Position numbers and translations under genes: made by a program
Shown here: positions 10,515 to 37,339 of the stretch, piece after piece
Layout: the number at the start of each line of letters is the position of its first letter
Position numbering within the stretch: position 1 is the first letter of the stretch
Notes under the pieces: generated by a model
Databases searched by the model: none
Told to the model about the DNA's origin: nothing
Seen by the model: the letters and a program-made list of their open reading frames with translations, nothing else
Assembly: GCF_005484945.1 (NCBI RefSeq)
Contig: NZ_CP034035.1
Span: forward strand, 2,170,001-2,234,000
Direction: 5' to 3'
DNA: 64,000 bases
From: Brenneria rubrifaciens
GTDB lineage: Bacteria > Pseudomonadota > Gammaproteobacteria > Enterobacterales > Enterobacteriaceae

Positions 10515-10804
10515 CCCCTCCCCTTTTCATGCGCCCTGCCGTCAGCAAGTAACGATTAGCACGAAGCACCAAAATAATGCACTGAATGAGTCATATTGAA
10601 GCTGAGCGTTTGTTTTTGGTGCAGTTACGCTTTTCCCTCAACCCCAGCCGCCGCAAAAGCTCGTCTTCCCTTTAATTTTTAACAAATTGATTTATCCATA
10701 CTATTTCCATTGCGCAATACCATTTTGTGACGGCCTTCTCGTGTTGGCATACTTTCTGCTAAGTCTCATATATAAGAACCATGTTCCATTTTTTGAGACA
10801 TGCA
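10515..10804 (+). other. Intergenic region upstream of the IclR-type gene
   Basis: No gene is seen in these 290 bases. The second half is AT-rich (ACAAATTGATTTATCCATACTATT around 10682-10706 as two overlapping stretches) and should hold the promoter and operator of the accessory operon. No operator could be named from the sequence alone. Confidence 0.4.
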
Positions 10805-11548
10805 ATGAGCATTTTAAATACCACCGCCGATATCCTGAAATTGATGAGCCAACTTAAGCGCGGCATTACCGCAGGCGATCTCATCACTCATTTGCAAATG
10901 CCCAAAAGCACCGCCTCACGGGTGCTGAAACAGTTGTGTGAAACCGGATTCCTGCAACGCGATCCTGCAACGGGCAGTTATCAGCCGGGATTGCTGCTGA
11001 TAGAAACAGCCTATCTGGTGCATCGTGTTTCTTCCCTGACCGACGATATTGAACAAGCCTTGCGCGCCCTGTGCCAGAGTACCGGACATACGGGCTATCT
11101 CTCCGTACTGGATGGCGATGAGGTGCTGGTATTACGCGTGATCCCCGGCCGCCACGCTTTGCGCGTTATTACCCATCCCGGTACACGTTCTCCCGCCTGG
11201 GAAACCTCGACCGGCCGCGCGTTGCTTTCCCGTTTTTCCGACGAACAACTCGCCGAACACTGTTCGACGCCGCAGGCCGCGACCACCCTCGACTTCACTG
11301 CGCAACGGAAACGTATTCATACCATTCGCCAGCAGCGCTGGTCGTATGCGGTCAATGAGGCCGTACCTGGCACGGCTTCCGTAAGTTGTTCCGTTCACAA
11401 CCCACAGACAAAAGAGAGCATCGCGTTCTGCCTCACCTTTCCGTCCTCCATGGCGGATCAGCAGGAAATCTTGCTGTTGGCCGAACAGCTCTATCAGGCG
11501 GCGATGCCGATTGGCAAGAAGTACGGCGACCCTTACTGGTTGAGCTGA
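10805..11548 (+). CDS. IclR-family transcriptional regulator
   Basis: This is a DNA-binding regulator with an N-terminal winged helix-turn-helix (about residues 5-65, including MPKSTASRVLKQLCETGFLQ) and a C-terminal IclR effector domain (about 75-245). The chosen ATG at 10805 gives 247 residues, the typical family length; an in-frame ATG at 10781 would add 8 unconserved residues. It is on the same strand as, and 61 bases before, the OPT transporter gene, so it is probably the local regulator of the six-gene operon. IclR members often control catabolic operons in response to a small carboxylate. The effector here is not known. Confidence 0.88.
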   Translation: MSILNTTADILKLMSQLKRGITAGDLITHLQMPKSTASRVLKQLCETGFLQRDPATGSYQPGLLLIETAYLVHRVSSLTDDIEQALRALCQSTGHTGYLSVLDGDEVLVLRVIPGRHALRVITHPGTRSPAWETSTGRALLSRFSDEQLAEHCSTPQAATTLDFTAQRKRIHTIRQQRWSYAVNEAVPGTASVSCSVHNPQTKESIAFCLTFPSSMADQQEILLLAEQLYQAAMPIGKKYGDPYWLS

Positions 11549-11609
11549 TGCGGATAATCATAACAACACCGCGCTCTCACATTTATTACGTTTACAGGAG
11601 TGGTATCAC

Positions 11610-13232
11610 ATGTCACAACCTTCACCTTTTCACCAGGATAAAACATTATCCAGGGCGCATCACCGGACATTCAATCCGTTAACCTTGCTGTTTCTGGTCA
11701 TCCTCAGCCTGTTCGGGGCCGTGATTGGCATCCAACTGCTGACCACGCTCGGCGTTACCCCCAATACGTCGATCATCGGCGCGTTAATTGCCATGTTGAT
11801 CGCACGCGTGCCGCTACAGCTTATGCAGCGCTTTCGCTCCATTCATGTGCAGAATTTGGCGCAAACCGCCATTTCATCGGCGACTTTCGGCGCGGCAAAC
11901 AGCCTGCTGCTGCCGATTGGCATACCCTGGCTGTTCGATCGGCCAGACCTGATTCTGCCGATGTTTATTGGTGTCGCGCTGGCGATGCTGCTGGACGGCT
12001 ATCTGCTTTACCGCATGTTCAACACTTCCATTTTTCCGGCGACCGGCACCTGGCCTCCCGGCGTCGCCGCGGCTGAATCCATTAAAGCCGGGGATACAGG
12101 GGGGAAACAGGCAGTGTTGCTGAGTGCGGGATTGGCGCTGGGCGTCATCGGTTCCAGTTTCAAATTACCGATGTCCGCCCTGGGCACCGCGTTTATCGGC
12201 AACATCTGGGCGCTGTCGATGTTCGGCATCGGCCTTTTACTGCGCGGTTACAGCCAGCCGTTACTGGGCATTGATATCAATCAGCACTATATTCCTCACG
12301 GAATGATGATTGGCGCGGGGATCGTAGCGCTGTTTCAGGTGATTGCGCTGATCCGGGGAAAACGCGGGTCGCAGGCGGTATTGACCGCCAAGGCTCTGCA
12401 AGCGGCCAACGATGACCGCCGCCATATCCTTTCCGCGCTGCGCATGGGCGCAATCGGTTATATCGGACTCGCCGCCCTGATTGCCTTCGGTACCGGGCTA
12501 TACAATGAAATGTCGCTTACCATGTTGCTGATCTTCGTGCTCTATGCCGCGTTCGCCGCGTTTATTCATGAATTGATCGTAGGACTTGCGGCGATGCATT
12601 CCGGTTGGTTTCCGGCATTCGCCGTAGCGCTGATCACGCTGATCATCGGCATGATGATCGGCTTCCCGATGCAAGCGCTGGCGGTACTGTGCGCGTTTTC
12701 CGTCGCCACCGGTCCGGCCTTCGCCGACATGGGATACGACCTCAAAGCCGGATTTATTCTGCGGGACAACGGACGTGACGCCGCTTTTGAACTGGATGGC
12801 CGCCGCCAGCAACTGTTTGCCGCCATGGTCGCGTTTGTGGTTGCTATCCCCGTGGTCTATTTTTCCTACCAGAGTTACTTTCAGCAGGGATTGATTCCCC
12901 CTGTCGCTAAAGTGTATGTCGCCACCATCAAAGCCGGCGTATCAGGCGATATCGCCACATCGTTGCTGCTGTGGGCGGTTCCAGGCGCCATTATTCAATG
13001 GCTGGGCGGCTCACGCCGTCAGTTAGGCGTCCTGCTAGCAACCGGCCTGCTGATTGCAAACCCGCTGGCAGGCTGGGCCGTGATACTGGGGATTACACTG
13101 CGACTGGCCATCCTCAAATGGGGAAGCGCGGCAATGCGCAGCCAGATGGAGGTCTTTGCTGCCGGTCTGATTGCCGGTGACGCTATCTATAACTTCTTCC
13201 ACTCTATTTTCGCCAGCAGGACAGGCAAATAA
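11610..13232 (+). CDS. OPT-family oligopeptide transporter
   Basis: This is a polytopic inner-membrane protein of 540 residues with about 12-14 hydrophobic segments. Recognisable OPT/YSL features are the long hydrophobic first segment after a ~25-residue polar N terminus, NSLLLPIGIPWLF, and the segment FPATGTWPPGVAAAESIKAG followed by GLALGVIGSSFKLP. OPT transporters import small peptides or their derivatives, probably with protons. An AGGAG ribosome site lies 10 bases before the ATG. It precedes four probable intracellular enzyme genes, so it most likely imports the compound they process. The substrate cannot be read from the sequence. Confidence 0.85.
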   Translation: MSQPSPFHQDKTLSRAHHRTFNPLTLLFLVILSLFGAVIGIQLLTTLGVTPNTSIIGALIAMLIARVPLQLMQRFRSIHVQNLAQTAISSATFGAANSLLLPIGIPWLFDRPDLILPMFIGVALAMLLDGYLLYRMFNTSIFPATGTWPPGVAAAESIKAGDTGGKQAVLLSAGLALGVIGSSFKLPMSALGTAFIGNIWALSMFGIGLLLRGYSQPLLGIDINQHYIPHGMMIGAGIVALFQVIALIRGKRGSQAVLTAKALQAANDDRRHILSALRMGAIGYIGLAALIAFGTGLYNEMSLTMLLIFVLYAAFAAFIHELIVGLAAMHSGWFPAFAVALITLIIGMMIGFPMQALAVLCAFSVATGPAFADMGYDLKAGFILRDNGRDAAFELDGRRQQLFAAMVAFVVAIPVVYFSYQSYFQQGLIPPVAKVYVATIKAGVSGDIATSLLLWAVPGAIIQWLGGSRRQLGVLLATGLLIANPLAGWAVILGITLRLAILKWGSAAMRSQMEVFAAGLIAGDAIYNFFHSIFASRTGK

Positions 13233-13301
13233 AATAAAGGGGTAAGCCATCATGATGTTGCAACGCATCTGATACATCACTTTTCAACAAGAGAATAGGT
13301 T

Positions 13302-14231
13302 ATGAGTCTTTTACATACATTAAATGCGATTGAAGTTCTTGATTCCGCGAACGCCAGCGGTCAGACCGTGGTTGAACTGTTGTCCCACTACCCACAGGCC
13401 GAGGTTACCGTAAGCGAAATTATCGGACCGAAAGGGAAGACCGACTTCGTCAAAGTGGTCATCCCCGGTACGGTCGGCAAACGCCACGGCGGACAGGCAC
13501 CGACATTAGGCATTATCGGCCGTTTAGGGGGCATCGGCGCCCGCCCTGGGCGTATCGGACTGGTTTCCGACGGCGATGGCGCCGTGGCCGCCGTCGCCGC
13601 GGCGATGAAACTGGCAAAAATGCAAACGCTGGGCGACAGTCTGCCCGGCGACGTGATTGTCTGCACCCATATCTGTCCGGATGCGCCAACCCGCCCTCAT
13701 GAACCGGTGGATTTCATGGATTCTCCGGTTGAAACCGAAGACATGAATGAACAGGAAGTGTCGCCGGAAATGGACGCCGTGTTGTCTATCGATACCACCA
13801 AAGGCAACCGCGTTATTAATCACAAAGGATTTGCGCTGTCCCCGACGGTAAAAGAAGGCTATATCTTGCGCGTTGCCGAAGATCTGCTGCGCATCATGGA
13901 GATGACGACGGGCCGTCTGCCGATGACTTTCCCAATTACCACGCAGGATATTACCCCTTATGGTAATGACGTGTTCCACATAAACAGCATCCTCCAGCCA
14001 TCTATCGCCACGTCTGCACCTGTCGTTGGCGTCGCCATCACCACTGAGAGCACCGTCCCCGGTTGCGGCACCGGCGCAAGTCACGAAGTCGATATCGCCG
14101 ACGCCGTCCGTTTCGTCGTCGAGGTTGCCAAAGAATTTACGCGTGGCGCCTGCCATTTCTACAACGTAGACGAATATCAGCGCCTGCTGTCGTTGTATGG
14201 ATCTTTGGCCCACCTGCAACAGCGCCAATAA
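13302..14231 (+). CDS. DUF1177 family protein, probable enzyme of unknown activity
   Basis: The 309-residue protein is recognised as DUF1177. Its function is not established. It has no signal peptide or membrane segment. Conserved-looking stretches are the glycine-rich GIIGRLGGIGARPGRIGLVSDGDGA (as two halves, about residues 68-92), a His/Cys/Asp cluster CTHICPDAPTRPHEP (about 121-135), and GCGTGASHEVDIADAVRF near the end. The His, Cys and Asp residues would suit a metal-dependent hydrolase; that is inference. It lies between the OPT transporter and the AroM, PepE and racemase genes, and homologues are usually found with the same partners. Confidence 0.8.
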   Translation: MSLLHTLNAIEVLDSANASGQTVVELLSHYPQAEVTVSEIIGPKGKTDFVKVVIPGTVGKRHGGQAPTLGIIGRLGGIGARPGRIGLVSDGDGAVAAVAAAMKLAKMQTLGDSLPGDVIVCTHICPDAPTRPHEPVDFMDSPVETEDMNEQEVSPEMDAVLSIDTTKGNRVINHKGFALSPTVKEGYILRVAEDLLRIMEMTTGRLPMTFPITTQDITPYGNDVFHINSILQPSIATSAPVVGVAITTESTVPGCGTGASHEVDIADAVRFVVEVAKEFTRGACHFYNVDEYQRLLSLYGSLAHLQQRQ

Positions 14232-14244
14232 CGGAGCGTCGCCC

Positions 14245-14925
14245 ATGTTTAATACCAGGCTGGGGACGCTTACCATCGGTCAGGCTCCCCGTCCCGATAT
14301 CACACCGATACTGGAGAGCCACCTGCCCGCAACAGTGGAGTGCACTCACGTCGGTGTGCTGGACGAACTTTCAAGAGAGAAGATCGCACAGCGCTTTGCA
14401 CCGCAGGCCGACGAAGCCATTCTCACCACGCGATTGCTGGACGGCAACGCCGTCATTCTCGGTAAAAACGCCGTGCGCGACGCGGTGCAACTAAAGCTGA
14501 ATCAGTTGGAACAACAGGGCTGTGGCATCATTCTGCTGTTGTGTACGGGCGAGTTTCACGGTCTGCATTGTCGGCAGGCATGGCTGATTGAACCAGATAC
14601 GATCGTCCCGCCGGTAGCAGCCGCCCTGCTGGGCGATCGTCAGCCCGGCATTCTGGTGCCGCTGGCGGAACAAATGCACAGTGAAGGCCATAAATGGCAA
14701 GCAATGCGAAAACTCCCGGTCTATGCCGCCGTGTCTCCTTACGACGGTAGTGATACGGAGCTGGTCGCGGCGGCCCACGCGCTCAAGAGCCAGCAGGCCG
14801 ACGCGATCATCATGGACTGCATGGGCTATAGCGAAAGTCACCGCGATGTGGTGCGCCAGGCTACCGGTCTGCCGGTGCTGCTTTCCAATGCGCTGATCGC
14901 CCGGCTGATCGCCAGCCTGCTCTGA
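14245..14925 (+). CDS. AroM family protein
   Basis: This 226-residue protein is clearly homologous to E. coli Aro[16 protein letters not shown] at the N terminus, [20 protein letters not shown], then [14 protein letters not shown] and [12 protein letters not shown] at the C terminus. In E. coli, aroM lies beside aroL and was named for its control by TyrR and TrpR; its activity is unknown. The fold is expected to resemble the Asp/Glu racemase group; I infer this from the paired Rossmann-like halves. The ATG at 14245 is chosen for its GGAG ribosome site 8 bases upstream. It lies 13 bases after the DUF1177 gene and 19 before pepE. Confidence 0.86.
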
Positions 14926-14944
14926 CAGAAAACAGGAAATCAAC

Positions 14945-15640
14945 ATGCAATTACTACTGCTCAGCAATGGCACACTGCCGGGGAAAAGCTACCTCGAACA
15001 CGCGTTGCCCCCGATTAGCCAACTGATCCAACATCGTCGCCGGGCGGTGTTTATCCCTTTCGCCGGCGTCACCGTAAGCTGGGACGACTACGCCGCTAAA
15101 GTTCAAGCCGCCCTGACGGACACCGACATTATCCTCACCTCGGCGCATGCGGTGGACGACGCCGTACAAGCCGTGCGCGAGGCGGAGATTATTATCGTCG
15201 GCGGCGGTAATACATTCAGTCTGTTGAAACACTGTAGAGAACGCGATCTGCTGACGACTATCCGCCAGCGCGTTGCGGATGGGACCCCTTATATCGGCTG
15301 GAGCGCAGGCGCAAATCTGGCCTGCCCGACCATCTGTACCACAAATGACATGCCGATTGTCGATCCGCAGGGGTTCGATGCGTTACACCTGATCGATTTT
15401 CAAATCAATCCACACTACACCAATAAGCTCCCTGAAGGACATCAGGGAGAAACCCGCGATCAGCGTATTGAGGAACTGCTGTGTATTCAATCTGATACGG
15501 TCGTGGTCGGCCTACCGGAAGGCGATTGGATCCGTATCGATGAGGTAGCGGCCTATCTTGCCGGTCCTTATGATGCGGTACTGTTCCGGGCCCAGCAGCC
15601 ACCGGTGACGATGGCCGTCAACCATCCATTCGCGCTGTAA
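14945..15640 (+). CDS. pepE: Peptidase E, alpha-aspartyl dipeptidase
   Basis: PepE hydrolyses dipeptides that start with aspartate (Asp-X). The 231-residue sequence belongs to peptidase family S51. The catalytic residues known from Salmonella PepE fall at the same positions: Ser120 in GWSAGAN, Asp135 in TNDMP and His157 in NPHYTN. The GGGNT segment (about 86-90) is also conserved. It is cytoplasmic, with no signal peptide. An AGGAAA ribosome site precedes the ATG. Placed after an OPT peptide transporter, it suggests that the imported substrate contains an N-terminal aspartyl residue. Confidence 0.9.
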
Positions 15641-15695
15641 CATGTCAGGCGGGCAAGCAAATGGCCGCCGTCCTCAATCCGAGAAGGAGTTCTTC

Positions 15696-16343
15696 ATGAC
15701 GCTGGGTATTATTCGTGTCCTCACCACACAGGACACCTTGCTGTTGGAAGAGCATGGCCGCCTGTTGGCCGAAGAATACGGCTTGCAGACAGTCAGCCGC
15801 TGCATCCCCGATCAGCCTCACGGCATCTTCGATGCAAGCAGTGAGGCACAAGCCCTTCCCAAAATCATCGCTCTTGGACAAGCCTACGAACGGGAAGGTT
15901 GTCAGGCTATTTTCCTGAGCTGTGCCGCCGATCCGGGACTGGACGAATTACGTCGGGCGATTTCTCTTCCAGTAATCAGCGCAGGCAGCGCCTGCGCACG
16001 TCTAGCCGCCAACCTAAAGCTGCCTGTCGCCGTTATAGGCATCGGCGACCAGGCACCGGCACCGTTTCGCCGCCTGCTGGGAGAAGATGTACTCTACGCT
16101 CGGCCTGAAGGCGTGACCCAAACCACCCATCTGCTGACACCAGAGGGTCGCGCCAGCGCACTAGCTTGTGCTAAAACGCTGTATGAGCAAGGCGCCGTAG
16201 TCATTGCTTTTTCTTGTACCGGATTGTCCACCATCGGTCTGGCAGAGCAAATTCGCAAAACTATCGGTTGTGTTGCCATAGACGCGGTTAGTACTTCGGG
16301 CATGTTCATAGTGGAGTGGTTGGGAAAACGCACAGTGGCATAG
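15696..16343 (+). CDS. Asp/Glu/hydantoin racemase family protein
   Basis: This 215-residue member of the two-domain racemase family uses a pair of cysteines for cofactor-free proton exchange. Both candidates are present: Cys76 in FLSCAADPG and Cys174 in AFSCTGLS. The N terminus MTLGIIRVLTT is of the hydantoin-racemase type. The frame is open upstream to 15642, but AGAAGGAG lies 8 bases before the ATG at 15696, which sets the start. It is the last gene of the accessory operon and only 55 bases after pepE. It may interconvert D- and L-aspartate (or a cyclic derivative) released by the preceding enzymes. That substrate is inferred. Confidence 0.85.
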   Translation: MTLGIIRVLTTQDTLLLEEHGRLLAEEYGLQTVSRCIPDQPHGIFDASSEAQALPKIIALGQAYEREGCQAIFLSCAADPGLDELRRAISLPVISAGSACARLAANLKLPVAVIGIGDQAPAPFRRLLGEDVLYARPEGVTQTTHLLTPEGRASALACAKTLYEQGAVVIAFSCTGLSTIGLAEQIRKTIGCVAIDAVSTSGMFIVEWLGKRTVA

Positions 16344-16394: not shown

Positions 16395-16803
16395 TAAGTC
16401 CTCCCGGCGTAGTCGGGGGTTTTCATATGCACCTGTAAGGCTCTCTCACCAGCCGCGCCCTAACAGACGCATCGCAATCTGACATTTGCATTCTTAGGGT
16501 CACCTACCGCCCCTAATCGGGCTTCGTGGATACGGACTCGATAGCTGTTCCCCTAATTTATCCTGCGCCAGTTGGTGCTTTATCTATTCCTGTCTCTTTG
16601 TTGTACTTTTACCCACTGTTTCAACGTAATACCCCCCGACACAAAATTCATGGTTTCTATATTTGACTTCAGCTTTCCAAATGCTTCATAGAGCATCAGG
16701 CTACTTTTCCCCGTCCGATAGCCCATAAAACTCGATACACCCATCTCTGGCGGGATCTCCAGAAGCATGTGTATATGGTCTGCAAACATTCTGCCTCCAG
16801 AAT
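16395..16803 (-). mobile_element. Decayed IS200/IS605-type element
   Basis: The remnant carries the 3' two-thirds of an IS200-type transposase gene followed by an IS200-like right end. The right end contains the sub-terminal hairpin CTCCCG (16401-16406) with CGGGGG (16414-16419), near the expected edge. The left end and the first part of tnpA are missing: recognisable similarity stops at about 16803, right beside the ihfB terminator. No terminal inverted repeats or target duplication are expected in this family and none is seen. The exact borders are estimates. Confidence 0.8.
16500..16803 (-). pseudogene. tnpA: IS200-type transposase TnpA remnant
   Basis: Reading from 16803 downwards gives GGRMFADHIHMLLEIPPEM then SSFMGYRTGKSSLMLYE, the middle of IS200 TnpA with its HUH motif (HIH). 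A single-base loss near 16665-16667 shifts the frame. In the next frame the family's C terminus continues (KYRNHEF, GGYYVETVGK, HQLAQDKLGEQL, RSPIRGR) to a TGA at 16500-16502. In that frame a TAG replaces the codon where the family has the catalytic tyrosine (QEYI reads QE-stop-I). About 60 N-terminal residues are also absent, so the gene is dead three times over. Confidence 0.85.
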
Positions 16804-16811
16804 GTTCACGA

Positions 16812-16843
16812 TAAAAAAAACGGCACCTTAACAGGCGCCGTTT
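16812..16843 (-). terminator. ihfB terminator
   Basis: On the minus strand AAACGGCGCC and GGTGCCGTTT pair around TGTTAA and are followed by a run of eight T. It ends ihfB transcription 69 bases after the stop. The IS200 remnant begins immediately beyond it. Confidence 0.88.
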
Positions 16844-16911
16844 CAAAACTCTTATTTAAAAATTAGTTGCAAGTAATACCATAAGACGTTGCGCTCTATT
16901 ACGGTAGCGAT

Positions 16912-31979: not shown

Positions 31980-32025
31980 AATTTATCCAGGGCCACGTCC
32001 GCCCACTAATGGGCAAGAGACGCGA

Positions 32026-33330
32026 TCAATCTGCCAATTGCGGGAAAGTTTTATGCACGGCGATATAAACCACCATACTGCTCATTGCCCCGTCCAGGGC
32101 AGAAATTGAACTTATCCTAAACAGGTTAAAAAAATCGGGTGACGTTAATAAACTCACAACACTACCGCAAAACCATGCCGCCGCCGCCGCCAAATTCAAA
32201 GCCGGAGATGGGGATATATCCTGTTTTAAGCGCGCTGAATCAAAAATGTAATATTCAACGAGGTAAACACCTGCTATTGGAGAAATAAGTACGCCTAACA
32301 GTGATAGAAACCGGGTGAAATTATTAATCATGCCGTTGTAAGCTAATAACAAACCAACCAATGCGATTAATACAACCAGCACTGGCCGCGATAAAATGCT
32401 TATCACGACAGATAACCCCAAAGATGCAGATACGAGATTGAAACTATTGGTGGTCCATTGAGCAAATATCAGTACCAATATAGCTGACAGCCCCAAGCCT
32501 ATACTGAAAAATACCTCAACCAGATCTTCACTCCCTACCAGATGAGTCAAAATCAAAGCAACCAATATGGTGGAGCTATTACCCAGGAAAAAACCCAAGC
32601 CAGCACCCAATAAAGCATCATTACGGGTTTTCGCATAACGGGAAATATCAGGTGACAACACAGCAGAAACAATCCAGATGGATACCACATAGGAAATAGC
32701 CGTTCCCATGTCGATAGGCTCTTTGATAAGGATGACAGGCGATATAGGAGTACTTGTCGCAGCAAGCACAATGCCCGAGATTATCAGAATCAGCATCAAC
32801 GGCACGCTGAATATACTTAACTTGCCCAATGCTCTGACGCCCCAGACAGCCGTAAGCGCCATTAATACCATACCAAATAACAATATGTGTAAACGCCCAA
32901 AATCCAGTTGATAATGCACCAGTGCTCTTTGCAGCATTACGCTAAAAAAATCGAGCTGAAAAGCAAACCATCCGAGTAAAGAAACCGCAGATAAAATACC
33001 AACTAATTTCCCACCCAAACGGCCAAATACAGAAATACTCAATAACGTCGTGGACAACCCACAGCCATAACCGACATTAGCGCACAATGCTGCCAATATA
33101 CCTAACAACGCCGACCCTATCAGCGTCGCGCTTACCGCCTGAACAAACGGCAATCCCCCGCTCAAAAACGAACCAAGAAACAAACCGGAGATATCGATGC
33201 CGATGGCCAGCCAGATCAAGGCAATAACGTACCAGCGTTTACGCGCTTCGGCGGGCACTGTTTCATACTCATAATCATATAATTGCCGATTTACCTGAGA
33301 TTTTCCTGACGCAGCGCCGCGGTGAGACAT
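32026..33330 (-). CDS. NCS1-family permease (cytosine/purine/hydantoin type)
   Basis: This 434-residue inner-membrane protein has about 12 hydrophobic segments and the CodB-like organisation of the NCS1 family. The N-terminal YEYETVPAEARKRWY leads into the first helix; the segment SAVLSPDISRYAKTRNDAL matches the conserved loop after helix 6. NCS1 permeases carry cytosine, allantoin, hydantoins or similar nitrogenous rings, usually with protons or sodium. It is the first gene of the operon that continues with DUF917 and the HyuA-type gene, so it likely brings in their substrate. It is divergent from the LysR gene, 270 bases away. Confidence 0.86.
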   Translation of the reverse strand: MSHRGAASGKSQVNRQLYDYEYETVPAEARKRWYVIALIWLAIGIDISGLFLGSFLSGGLPFVQAVSATLIGSALLGILAALCANVGYGCGLSTTLLSISVFGRLGGKLVGILSAVSLLGWFAFQLDFFSVMLQRALVHYQLDFGRLHILLFGMVLMALTAVWGVRALGKLSIFSVPLMLILIISGIVLAATSTPISPVILIKEPIDMGTAISYVVSIWIVSAVLSPDISRYAKTRNDALLGAGLGFFLGNSSTILVALILTHLVGSEDLVEVFFSIGLGLSAILVLIFAQWTTNSFNLVSASLGLSVVISILSRPVLVVLIALVGLLLAYNGMINNFTRFLSLLGVLISPIAGVYLVEYYIFDSARLKQDISPSPALNLAAAAAWFCGSVVSLLTSPDFFNLFRISSISALDGAMSSMVVYIAVHKTFPQLAD

Positions 33331-33406
33331 ACCACCCCCATATAATTAAGAAAAATGCTTATTTTACATTGATGATATTTTATAGTGGTCGTGGTATGCC
33401 TCATAG

Positions 33407-33443
33407 AATAATGGCGCTGCTGAATATTAGCAGCGCCATTATT
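33407..33443. repeat. Perfect 15-base inverted repeat in the permease-lysR intergenic region
   Basis: AATAATGGCGCTGCT (33407-33421) is exactly complementary to AGCAGCGCCATTATT (33429-33443) around a 7-base loop. It resembles a bidirectional terminator core but no gene ends near it; it lies between the two divergent starts, 76 bases from the permease start. It would fold in the 5' leader of the permease mRNA if transcription starts upstream of it. Confidence 0.8.
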
Positions 33444-33600
33444 TATGAGAGAGAAGCCCTGATGTGACGCACAAACCACGCTTTTTGTGGTAGCCACATA
33501 CCATGTAGCATGGCAGCAATATAAACAGGAATCATATTTGGTTAATACAGATATATTTTGATGTTAACATTCAAAGATATATTGTAAGTAAGGGAATATT

Positions 33601-34521
33601 ATGCGTTTGGATAAGTTGGAGATCCGCTGGTTAAAGCTCTTTTGCAAAATAGTTGAAAAACAAGGAATTACAAATGCACAAGCCGCAACCGGGTTAAGCC
33701 AGCCGGTACTGAGCCACTATTTGTCCCGACTTGAGGACACGCTCGGGTTAGTGCTCTGTGAACGTGGACGCGGTGGTTTCTCTTTAACGACTGAAGGGGA
33801 ACTTGTCTATCAAGAAGCCCTATCGGTAATCGCTACATTGGATGACTTTGCTAACCGACTGGCAGGAATTAAGAATCAATTAATCGGTGAAGCACGATTA
33901 GGCTGTCTGGATAATACCGTCACGCACCCGGCTAAAGTTGTCTCAAATGCCATTGGAAAACTCTATAATCAAAGCCCGGATGTCGCCGTTGAACTTGAGA
34001 TAGGTGATTATACACCGCTGTCGGAGCGTTTAAAAAACGGCCATATCGACATCATGCTTAGCGTATTACCCGATGATGTTCCACCCGATATAATCTTTCA
34101 GCCCGCTTTTGTTGAACAAAGTTATTTTTACTCTATTGCAGAAAACGCATCTCGTATCGAAAAAGAATGGCGAGACGGTACATTAAATCCGAAAAGATTA
34201 TTGATCGGTGCTCATGCACTTCATGAAATTAGCAAACAACTGGGTCCGGTAGCGAAAAAAGGATTACAGTGCACAGCATGGAATCTTGAAAGCAGTCTAT
34301 TACTCCTGCTGGCAGGGACACACATTGGCTTCCTGCCCGATCACTACGCATCACCGTGGGTTGAAAAAGGGAAACTCATTGCTATCGCTCCCGATCATCT
34401 TAAACTGACCAGTATTTTCTATTTGATAAAAAATACCAAACAGCGCCTAAGTCCGGTAGCAGAAGCGTTATGGAATAATATCATTGAAGCTGGCCAGAGT
34501 TGGCTGGCCAGCTTGAAATAA
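33601..34521 (+). CDS. LysR-family transcriptional regulator
   Basis: The 306-residue protein has the N-terminal LysR helix-turn-helix (about residues 5-65, ITNAQAATGLSQPVLSHYLSRLEDTLG) and a periplasmic-binding-like effector domain from about 90. The spacing is typical. It is divergent from the permease-DUF917-HyuA operon, the classical arrangement for a LysR activator that senses the pathway's substrate. Base composition is more AT-rich than the flanking core genes, in line with an acquired module. Its last codons are inside a strong hairpin and it meets ycaD tail to tail with only 6 bases between. Confidence 0.9.
   Translation: MRLDKLEIRWLKLFCKIVEKQGITNAQAATGLSQPVLSHYLSRLEDTLGLVLCERGRGGFSLTTEGELVYQEALSVIATLDDFANRLAGIKNQLIGEARLGCLDNTVTHPAKVVSNAIGKLYNQSPDVAVELEIGDYTPLSERLKNGHIDIMLSVLPDDVPPDIIFQPAFVEQSYFYSIAENASRIEKEWRDGTLNPKRLLIGAHALHEISKQLGPVAKKGLQCTAWNLESSLLLLLAGTHIGFLPDHYASPWVEKGKLIAIAPDHLKLTSIFYLIKNTKQRLSPVAEALWNNIIEAGQSWLASLK
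34487..34514 (+). terminator. Hairpin overlapping the lysR 3' end
   Basis: AAGCTGGCCA (34487-34496) and TGGCCAGCTT (34505-34514) make a perfect 10-base stem inside the last lysR codons. The stop lies a few bases after it (TGAAATAAAAAG region). It may act as a terminator or 3' barrier between the convergent lysR and ycaD transcripts; the T tract expected of a classical terminator is missing. Confidence 0.5.
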
Positions 34522-34527
34522 AAAGAC

Positions 34528-35679
34528 TCAGGCTGCGGCCAGGGGCGTCGGATGGTGGTCGGCTTTTTTAAGCAGCATGATCAGATAACCCAGCGAAACC
34601 ACGGCAATCAGCACAAACAGCAACCGATCGGAATAAGTTTGCATTAGTACGGCTGCGAGGCTTGGGCCACACAGACTGCCAAGGGTATAACTCAGCAATA
34701 ATGCCTGATTCATTGCCACGAGCTCTTCCGAGCGTACCTTTTCACACGCCCATGACATCGCCACAGGATAAAGAGTAAAACCAGCACATCCAAGCATGAA
34801 CAGTGCAGGCGCCATAGCATAGTGGCTGATACTCAACATCGCGAGGCAGCCAATAATCACCACAAAAACCAATACCCGCAATACCAGCAAGCGGCCATAT
34901 CGATCGGCCATTCGCCCGACGGGCCATTGCCCTGCAATACCTGCGCTAATTAATAGTGCCATCCAATAGCCAACCTGCGCATCACTCATGCCTTGATGTG
35001 AAAGATAAAGTGGCATTAAACCGTACAGCGAACCTAAAATCACCCCGGAAATCACACAGCCGCGCACGCCCAGCCTGGCACTTCGATATTTGAGCATCTG
35101 CCATACATTCACTTGACTCGTCTGAACAGCGGGCCTGGGAATCCGAGTAAACATCAATGGCAATATCGCCAGAATAATTAACGCAGTAACCCAGGTCAAA
35201 ACGCTTAATAACTGCGTTGGCAAAGCGCCGAGCAGCAATTGGCCAATCACGCTGCCAAGATAGTAGGCCATCATATAGGCGGCTAACAACTGTCCGCGCT
35301 GGGAGGGCGCACCGCTGCAAAGCACTGCGCTCTCTACTACGACCCATATCAGCGCACATCCAACCCCGGCCATAAAACGCCAAATTAGCCAACTCCAGAA
35401 ATCAACCGAGATACCCAACCCGATAGTGGCGATACCAAACAACAAGACGGCAAAATAATAACTGTGATTAAATCCGTAACGCCTGATTAACTTACCCGCC
35501 AATAACGTCCCTAGCAGATTGCCACTGAAATAAGATGAGCCAACCATACCCACCTGCCAGATAGGAAGTTGCTGATCATTGAGCCAAAGCGGTACCAGTG
35601 TATTCAATACAGCAATACAGACCGTCAGCAACAGCAGACCGCAGAGCAAACAGCGCACTGGGGAAAAATAAGCAGACAT
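34528..35679 (-). CDS. ycaD: MFS transporter YcaD
   Basis: This 383-residue major facilitator protein has twelve hydrophobic segments and the motif-A-like loop between helices 2 and 3 ([11 protein letters not shown]). It matches E. coli YcaD over its full length, including [17 protein letters not shown] and [17 protein letters not shown]. The substrate is unknown. In E. coli, ycaD also lies between serS and the pfl block. It converges on the lysR gene. Confidence 0.93.
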
Positions 35680-35992
35680 AATGAAATGGATAACCAGACG
35701 ACCAGGAGATGAGTGAGCGCATCATGCCACTGCGTATTTGAAAGTCAATCAGGGCGGAATGAGAGAAACAGGTTGCACAAACACATTGATTTGAATAATT
35801 AATCAATGAAACGTCGACACCTATCGCCCGCAAATGAAAGCCATTTATATGATGATGATTTTAAATATATTTGGCAGATAAAACAGAGTTCAAAACAGCC
35901 GGATGAAGCTGAAAAATAAATTTCTCGATTAAAAAATATTGCCGAGCCATACGTAAAAAAAGCGCCAACAGGCGCTTTTAATGAGAAAATAT
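35680..35992 (-). promoter_or_regulatory. ycaD upstream region with palindrome
   Basis: These 313 bases between ycaD and serS hold no gene. CATTGATT (35784-35791) and AATCAATG (35801-35808) form a perfect palindrome with a 9-base centre, about 105 bases upstream of the ycaD start, possibly an operator. The serS terminator lies at the distal end. Confidence 0.45.
35956..35980 (-). terminator. serS terminator
   Basis: On the minus strand AAAAGCGCC and GGCGCTTTT pair around a TGTT loop and the T run continues as TTTTTT. It lies 13 bases beyond the serS stop. Confidence 0.88.

Positions 35993-37339
<1,347 letters not shown>

Follow-up and report, generated by a model that had tools for sequence, protein, structure and literature searches.

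A six-gene IclR-OPT-DUF1177-AroM-PepE-racemase block inherited as a unit in Brenneria, and a proposed origin of E. coli aroM

In a stretch of 64,000 nucleotides from Brenneria rubrifaciens (contig NZ_CP034035.1, positions 2,170,001 to 2,234,000; hereafter the window), six co-directional genes at 10805-16343, all on the forward strand, encode an IclR-family regulator, an OPT-family importer, a DUF1177 protein, AroM, the dipeptidase PepE and a protein of the Asp/Glu/hydantoin racemase family. We found that the six genes are inherited as a single unit, and that clusters of DUF1177, AroM and an importer, with differing importers and final hydrolases, are present across Proteobacteria, Bacillota and a haloarchaeon. 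The AroM of E. coli, judging from trees and conserved residues, is best read as a repurposed pseudo-racemase from such a catabolic operon. A sequence-only reading of this DNA had proposed a system for scavenging aspartyl peptides; the unit, the co-occurrence of its genes and a likely racemisation step (through a two-cysteine racemase and a racemase-fold AroM) were upheld, but aspartyl specificity as a general property was not.

RESULTS

The six genes behave as one unit

Pfam and NCBIfam matches confirmed that all six genes are real and had been correctly named, and the gaps between them measure 13-69 bases (61, 69, 13, 19 and 55, in order). Compared across nine genomes of the genus, the interval between hisIE and a short gene that we take to be ihfB holds either all six genes (4/9) or none of them (5/9). 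Three of the block-less genomes have 71-112 bases between the hisIE and ihfB matches and two have other open reading frames (ORFs) there; the search for the block elsewhere in the genome covered G875 among these five. The same six-gene order is also present on a Klebsiella plasmid and a Sodalis plasmid. Because the order recurs on two plasmids and the block is all-or-nothing at the genus site, the grouping is more than chance, and the importer and the enzymes belong together as the sequence-only reading had supposed. On the Klebsiella plasmid (L002), a conjugative plasmid from cattle faeces, the complete cassette is flanked by transposase genes.

Partners of DUF1177 in other genomes

Neighbours were counted when a gene lay within 9 kb of DUF1177 on the same strand. 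The 80 closest loci are the best 80 of at least 586 and hence biased toward close kin; among them we counted AroM in 68, OPT in 67, a racemase in 33, an M29-like peptidase in 26, PepE in 23, DUF917 in 19 and a Dpp-type binding protein in 9. Even sampling of the Bacillota found DUF1177 in 33/299 genomes, 30 of which were used (G446 and G516 are fragmentary and G299 is the same as L048; some contigs are short). AroM was near DUF1177 in 20 of these 30 loci, a racemase and a PucR regulator in 17 each, DUF917 in 15, M29 in 13, OPT in 11 and PepE in 0. The co-occurrence on which the earlier proposal leaned is therefore real for AroM (68/80 and 20/30) and the racemase (33/80 and 17/30), and for PepE it stands at 23/80 and 0/30. 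In three Bacillota loci (L147, L149 and L150) DUF1177 lies beside ATP-binding cassette (ABC) genes, which were of the Liv type by Pfam in L147, the one checked, and its neighbours in another (L140) include RNase HII and GTPase genes.

In wide samples DUF1177 proved rare: it was found in 1/299 Pseudomonadota genomes, that one being the window's own, and above cut-off in 1/197 genomes of the order-wide sample, where AroM was found in 6/197. Among 198 genomes of the GTDB family, 79 have AroM and 21 have DUF1177, the two adjoining in 17/21. Two of these 17 (G791 and G815) have a DUF1177 match split into pieces, with AroM also broken in G791, and the cassette seems, from these sequences, to be decaying there. 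Three enterobacterial loci without AroM (L296, L297 and L298) carry DUF1177, an NCS1 permease, a CN_hydrolase and IclR in one operon, a possible hydantoin- or ureide-type variant; we rejected a failure to detect AroM in them, as they hold a different operon.

The importers across the clusters are OPT, Dpp/SBP_bac_5, Liv-like or NCS1, that is, of peptide, amino-acid or nucleobase/hydantoin type. Among the loci examined PepE was seen in Proteobacteria only, many Bacillota and the archaeal plasmid having an M29-like aminopeptidase and others M20. This haloarchaeal plasmid has Dpp-type ABC genes followed by DUF917-DUF1177-AroM-M29, a nitroreductase and a racemase. Neighbours in related clusters include DUF917, hydantoinase A/B and CN_hydrolase, and a CDOB subunit gene (PF19585) lay 1.3-5.5 kb from DUF1177 in 5/10 genomes or records tested, which is not a frequency, as 7 of the 10 had been chosen for a nearby nitroreductase.

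DUF1177 has a predicted zinc-exopeptidase fold

DUF1177 is very conserved, with 54% identity between the window and the haloarchaeon and at least 7998 relatives. A fold search with its predicted structure returned the M42/M28/M20/M17 zinc-exopeptidase fold. By sequence the relationship is hidden: a Pfam scan of the window protein gave no peptidase family and PF06675 alone at E<=0.001, single-sequence and profile searches of the PDB gave no credible relative, and hhalign against three E. coli M42 proteins gave a probability of 0.4%, taken as a hint only. The metal ligands of M42/M28/M20/M17 zinc aminopeptidases are HxD, a bridging D, EE, D/E and H, whereas a low-confidence alignment and the order of elements suggest R74-L-G in DUF1177 where HxD would stand and C125-P-D/N in place of EE. 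Our prediction is a zinc-exopeptidase-fold hydrolase whose active site departs from the canonical one. In the literature searched, the only mention of DUF1177 turned up in work on the fungal DUF1996; the present analysis supplies the family with a fold prediction, a set of partners and chemistry that can be tested.

AroM is a likely two-cysteine epimerase

The structure model of AroM had a predicted local distance difference test score of 93.8, and its top Foldseek match was 2eq5, named hydantoin racemase (2.6e-8). The cysteine pair C100/C192 is kept in 113/113 cluster AroMs (109 distinct sequences, as some Enterobacterales genomes, such as L008 and L285, occur in two sets). AroM falls below the PF01177 cut-off (21.8 bits vs 31) and has a family of its own, PF07302; it had no PDB relative by sequence at E<=1, and a low-depth hhalign comparison with racemase profiles gave 25% probability, superseded by the fold model. 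The model suggests that AroM is a second two-cysteine racemase-fold enzyme, likely an epimerase, and because the pair is kept wherever AroM accompanies DUF1177, its catalysis appears tied to the DUF1177 pathway. PMC11055893 describes the AroM family as not experimentally characterised, and PMC5343134 lists aroM among chorismate biosynthesis genes; mentions of AROM in PMC4945936 were set aside as strain names, not the gene.

PepE and the second racemase as apparent accessories

PepE matches NCBIfam PRK05282 (321.3 bits, cut-off 156) and the aspartyl dipeptidase 1fy2 (3.7e-85). Its Ser120, Asp135 and His157, which the sequence-only reading had named as the catalytic set, align with the 1fy2 residues that we take to be the catalytic triad and are kept in 26/26 PepE of the fetched loci, window included. 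The racemase passes the PF01177 cut-off (71.7 bits vs 31), its closest PDB entry is again the hydantoin racemase 2eq5 (1.3e-49), and its Cys76 and Cys174, also correctly named before, are invariant in an alignment of four and both kept in 54/54 racemases of the fetched loci, window included. Since the version of the cassette at aroL, described next, shows only IclR, OPT, DUF1177 and AroM, gene content suggests that PepE and the second racemase are accessories, and specificity for aspartate would be no more than a local feature.

The E. coli aroM lies in a locus that elsewhere holds the cassette

The gene order in E. coli K-12 is proC-yaiI-aroL-yaiA-aroM-ppnP-rdgC-mak. Pantoea, Rouxiella, Hafnia, Rahnella and one Serratia (L071) have the same flanks with IclR-OPT-DUF1177 between aroL and aroM, and yaiA was detected with aroL in most of these cassette-bearing loci; neither PepE, M29 nor a second racemase was seen in them. 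Within the shared locus (proC, yaiI, aroL, yaiA, ppnP, rdgC and mak), E. coli differs in that it lacks IclR-OPT-DUF1177, has Ser at the Cys100 position and has lost the GQAPR motif. Its AroM shares 40-46% identity with 18 cluster AroMs from the aroL locus and 28-29% with four PepE-type AroMs.

AroM was found in 63 loci on contigs lacking DUF1177, each with aroL in the fetched 10 kb. Both cysteines are present in 2/62 stand-alone AroMs (61 plus E. coli K-12), in contrast to every cluster copy, and the GQ[AS]PR motif in 0/62 vs 112/113 cluster copies, while G135 and D191 are among the residues that persist. Two loci, L230 (G930) and L237 (G796), read aroL-IclR-AroM-ppnP, without OPT and DUF1177 and with both AroM cysteines kept; in gene order they are apparent intermediates of cassette loss, and the tree puts their AroMs beside Rahnella, off the E. 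coli line.

In the tree, 24 sampled stand-alone AroMs form one clade (99/97) that is joined with six Pantoea cluster AroMs (97/88), and this group sits within the aroL-locus clade (100/99). Removal of 25 motif positions (52 rows) left the corresponding supports at 95/92, 98/93 and 100/100; in this reduced tree, the choice of which Pantoea copy lies closest was weakly supported (24/25). As the stand-alone AroMs nest inside cluster AroMs, we rejected an original aroL-yaiA-aroM into which IclR-OPT-DUF1177 was inserted later. The ratio of nonsynonymous to synonymous substitution rates (dN/dS) was 0.05-0.14 in 9/9 stand-alone pairs and 0.03-0.21 in 11 cluster-type pairs (one IclR-only pair included), with one pair undefined and several dS values saturated; the stand-alone values indicate purifying selection, and a dying pseudogene was rejected. 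The pseudo-racemase reading of E. coli AroM follows from this combination: its clade is nested in cluster copies and the cysteine pair is nearly always lost there, yet purifying selection acts on the pairs sampled. The origin of the long-unexplained aroM would thereby be traced to a catabolic cassette, from which a specific prediction for K-12 follows.

Local features of the block

The his operon ends upstream of the block, with hisIE reaching 10478, and downstream on the opposite strand are ihfB, rpsA, cmk and EPSP synthase. The preferred starts are those of Table 1, which for IclR (10805), AroM (14245) and the racemase (15696) lie inside mechanical ORFs that begin further upstream. The OPT gene passes the PF03169 cut-off (98.5 bits vs 25.8). 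The inverted repeat before IclR is a candidate IclR operator on sequence grounds: GGAACCAGGTTCC was found in 2/4 aligned upstream regions from genomes of the window's genus, within the best-conserved stretch, and GAACCNNGTTCC occurs once in the window vs 0.15 expected. A promoter and terminator scan of the region gave counts not above shuffles (hairpins 6 vs a shuffle mean of 6.9), so position alone backs the hairpin at 16401-16419. The IS200-like fragment had no match at the same site in 8 other genomes of the genus (E<=1e-5), and its place beside the block is an association only. Elsewhere in the window, 32001-36000 has the lowest GC (0.453) and the highest AT skew (+0.215) among 16 blocks.

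Table 1. Features of the block and its flanks (window coordinates)
Feature	Position	Strand	Evidence
Inverted repeat AGAACCATGTTCC, candidate IclR operator	10775..10787	.	Directly 5' of the IclR start
IclR-family regulator	10805..11548	+	PF01614 (IclR_C) 1.3e-19, PF09339 2.3e-9
OPT/YSL-family importer, 540 aa	11610..13232	+	PF03169 5.2e-28
DUF1177, predicted zinc-exopeptidase-fold hydrolase, non-canonical active site	13302..14231	+	PF06675 1.8e-136
AroM, two-cysteine (C100/C192) racemase-fold protein, likely epimerase	14245..14925	+	PF07302 1.6e-76
PepE, S51 aspartyl dipeptidase, triad S120/D135/H157	14945..15640	+	PF03575 (Peptidase_S51) 2.6e-59; NCBIfam
Asp/Glu/hydantoin racemase family, C76/C174	15696..16343	+	PF01177 (Asp_Glu_race) 9.8e-20
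Terminator-like hairpin and T run	16401..16419	+	8-pair stem, after the last gene
IS200-like transposase fragment, between the block and ihfB	16580..16855	-	PF01797 1.2e-7, profile 50-91 of 121

DISCUSSION

Each reaction, the order of steps and the substrate are our inferences; the computations themselves establish which genes are present, that they are inherited together, which folds are predicted, that the cysteines are conserved and that the partners are interchangeable. Our best model, which we rate at slightly less than an even chance, runs from import through Cys-Cys epimerisation and hydrolysis by DUF1177 to a final cleavage by PepE. OPT would import a peptide-like amide, and a stereocentre would be inverted by two two-cysteine proton-transfer isomerases, namely AroM and the second racemase. 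As a hydrolase with a metallopeptidase fold and a rewired active site, DUF1177 would open or cleave the amide, and PepE would release aspartate from the Asp-X product. The general logic would be that of an importer, a Cys-Cys epimerase, an amide hydrolase and a final peptidase or amidohydrolase. The sequence-only reading had left the DUF1177 and AroM steps blank, and they may now be filled, from the models, by a zinc-exopeptidase-fold hydrolase and a two-cysteine racemase-fold enzyme. That the block is a horizontally mobile catabolic cassette with its own IclR regulator falls, taken together with this whole mechanism, just short of even as well.

As substrate we favour a cyclic dipeptide or hydantoin-like compound over a plain aspartyl peptide. 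By analogy the ring would be that of a 2,5-diketopiperazine or a hydantoin-like cyclic amide, in this block something like cyclo(Asp-X), a tentative assignment that we rate as rather less likely than not. Two considerations favour it: ring compounds are the substrates of several racemase-fold members (hydantoin, allantoin and diketopiperazine isomerases), and genes of hydantoin and cyclodipeptide type are present in sister clusters. In its fullest form, the proposal would be that DUF1177 is a ring-opening enzyme on a rewired M42-type exopeptidase fold, the core of a diketopiperazine/hydantoin module in Bacteria and Archaea, with AroM as dedicated epimerase, and that E. coli AroM is this epimerase minus its catalytic cysteine, retained by selection as a pseudoenzyme of the aromatic-acid operon once the module had been deleted; we consider this rather unlikely.

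Several observations weigh against our model and its ring substrate. The ring idea rests on relatives, because the window's genome has no CDOB match (PF19585) and family scans of the six window genes found no DUF917, hydantoinase or carbamoylase. Nor is the fold proof of a ring substrate, because other racemase-fold members, by the names of the Foldseek matches, act on free Asp/Glu, maleate or arylmalonates. DUF1177 shows no evident counterpart of the canonical dinuclear M42/M28 ligands and may therefore hydrolyse differently from those enzymes, and AroM may act after DUF1177 rather than before it. Furthermore, no AroM was detected near DUF1177 in 12/80 of the closest loci and 10/30 of the Bacillota loci. 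Given that four of these ten Bacillota loci (L140, L143, L144 and L145) have no modelled partner on the same strand near DUF1177, the protein may also act alone.

The closest competitor keeps to aspartate: linear aspartyl peptides, D- or isoaspartyl ones included, would be imported and cut at Asp-X by PepE, the racemases would convert free D-Asp or D-Glu, and DUF1177 would be an extra peptidase. We consider this unlikely, as PepE is near DUF1177 in the minority of loci counted above and in no Bacillota locus, its place being taken by M29-like, M20 or CN_hydrolase enzymes; neither PepE nor M29 was seen in the version at aroL; a second racemase would be redundant if the two served a single free amino acid; and the NCS1-CN_hydrolase partners do not fit. 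Those same partners speak for a true hydantoin or ureide pathway, in which DUF1177 would be a hydantoinase analogue giving N-carbamoyl amino acids, with PepE, M29, M20 and CN_hydrolase as decarbamoylating or follow-on enzymes. The NCS1, CN_hydrolase, IclR and DUF1177 set occurs in 3/3 AroM-less loci examined in the family (of four without adjacent AroM), hydantoinase A/B lies near DUF1177 in L006, 2eq5 is the nearest structure to both racemase-fold proteins, and PucR regulators occur in 17/30 Bacillota loci. However, the window operon is without a known carbamoylase family, PepE as a dipeptidase would be left without a substrate, and oligopeptide importers would be odd for hydantoins, making this pathway distinctly improbable.

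A role in isoaspartyl or succinimide damage, with aged peptides, imported or internal, epimerised and cut at D/L-Asp succinimides, would explain the racemases, and both the specificity of PepE for Asp and the ring chemistry of aminosuccinimide would suit it. A membrane importer and IclR or PucR regulators point instead to nutrition, and PepE is not general across the DUF1177 family, so we regard this role as very improbable. Least credible is a loose neighbourhood of unrelated genes transferred together, with no common pathway. The patchy distribution, the IS200 fragment that adjoins the block and the plasmid copies would agree with it, but it is largely refuted by the same core in Bacteria and a haloarchaeon and by an AroM cysteine pair in 113/113 cluster copies vs 2/62 stand-alone ones.

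The epimerase-hydrolase cassette that we prefer resembles known systems in part. Hydantoin utilisation (hyu) systems comprise an Mhp1-type NCS1 permease, a hydantoin racemase, a hydantoinase and a carbamoylase. The cassette likewise has an importer, a two-cysteine racemase, a ring or amide hydrolase and a second amidohydrolase, and in some DUF1177 relatives NCS1 and CN_hydrolase are present as well. Unlike hyu, its hydrolase is DUF1177 and not a cyclic amidohydrolase, the importer in the window is OPT, it ends in a dipeptidase and it has two racemase-fold proteins. NozR, an Asp/Glu racemase homologue described in PMC10156859, epimerises a cyclic dipeptide, and mutation of its cysteine pair abolishes the activity. 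By family the cassette shares with it the Cys-Cys racemase type, whereas NozR is biosynthetic and acts on cyclo(Trp-Trp) (PMC10156859).

A literature search on diketopiperazine hydrolases led to a single record, on caprolactam, and no paper in the literature searched names three or more of PepE, the OPT family, IclR, glutamate racemase and the AroM family. The module is a set of known enzyme kinds in a combination for which that literature gave no account, and the closest description found is that of the non-cyclodipeptide synthase (non-CDPS) cyclodipeptide-oxidase clusters (PMC11055893). According to that source, hydantoin racemases, AroM and DUF917 are enriched in these clusters together with OPT and peptidases. 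They differ from our block in that the window's genome lacks CDOB, and DUF1177 is not named in the available part of PMC11055893. They are alike in the PF01177 racemase, AroM, OPT or Dpp, DUF917 and peptidases, and in the CDOB genes found near DUF1177 in half of the genomes or records tested.

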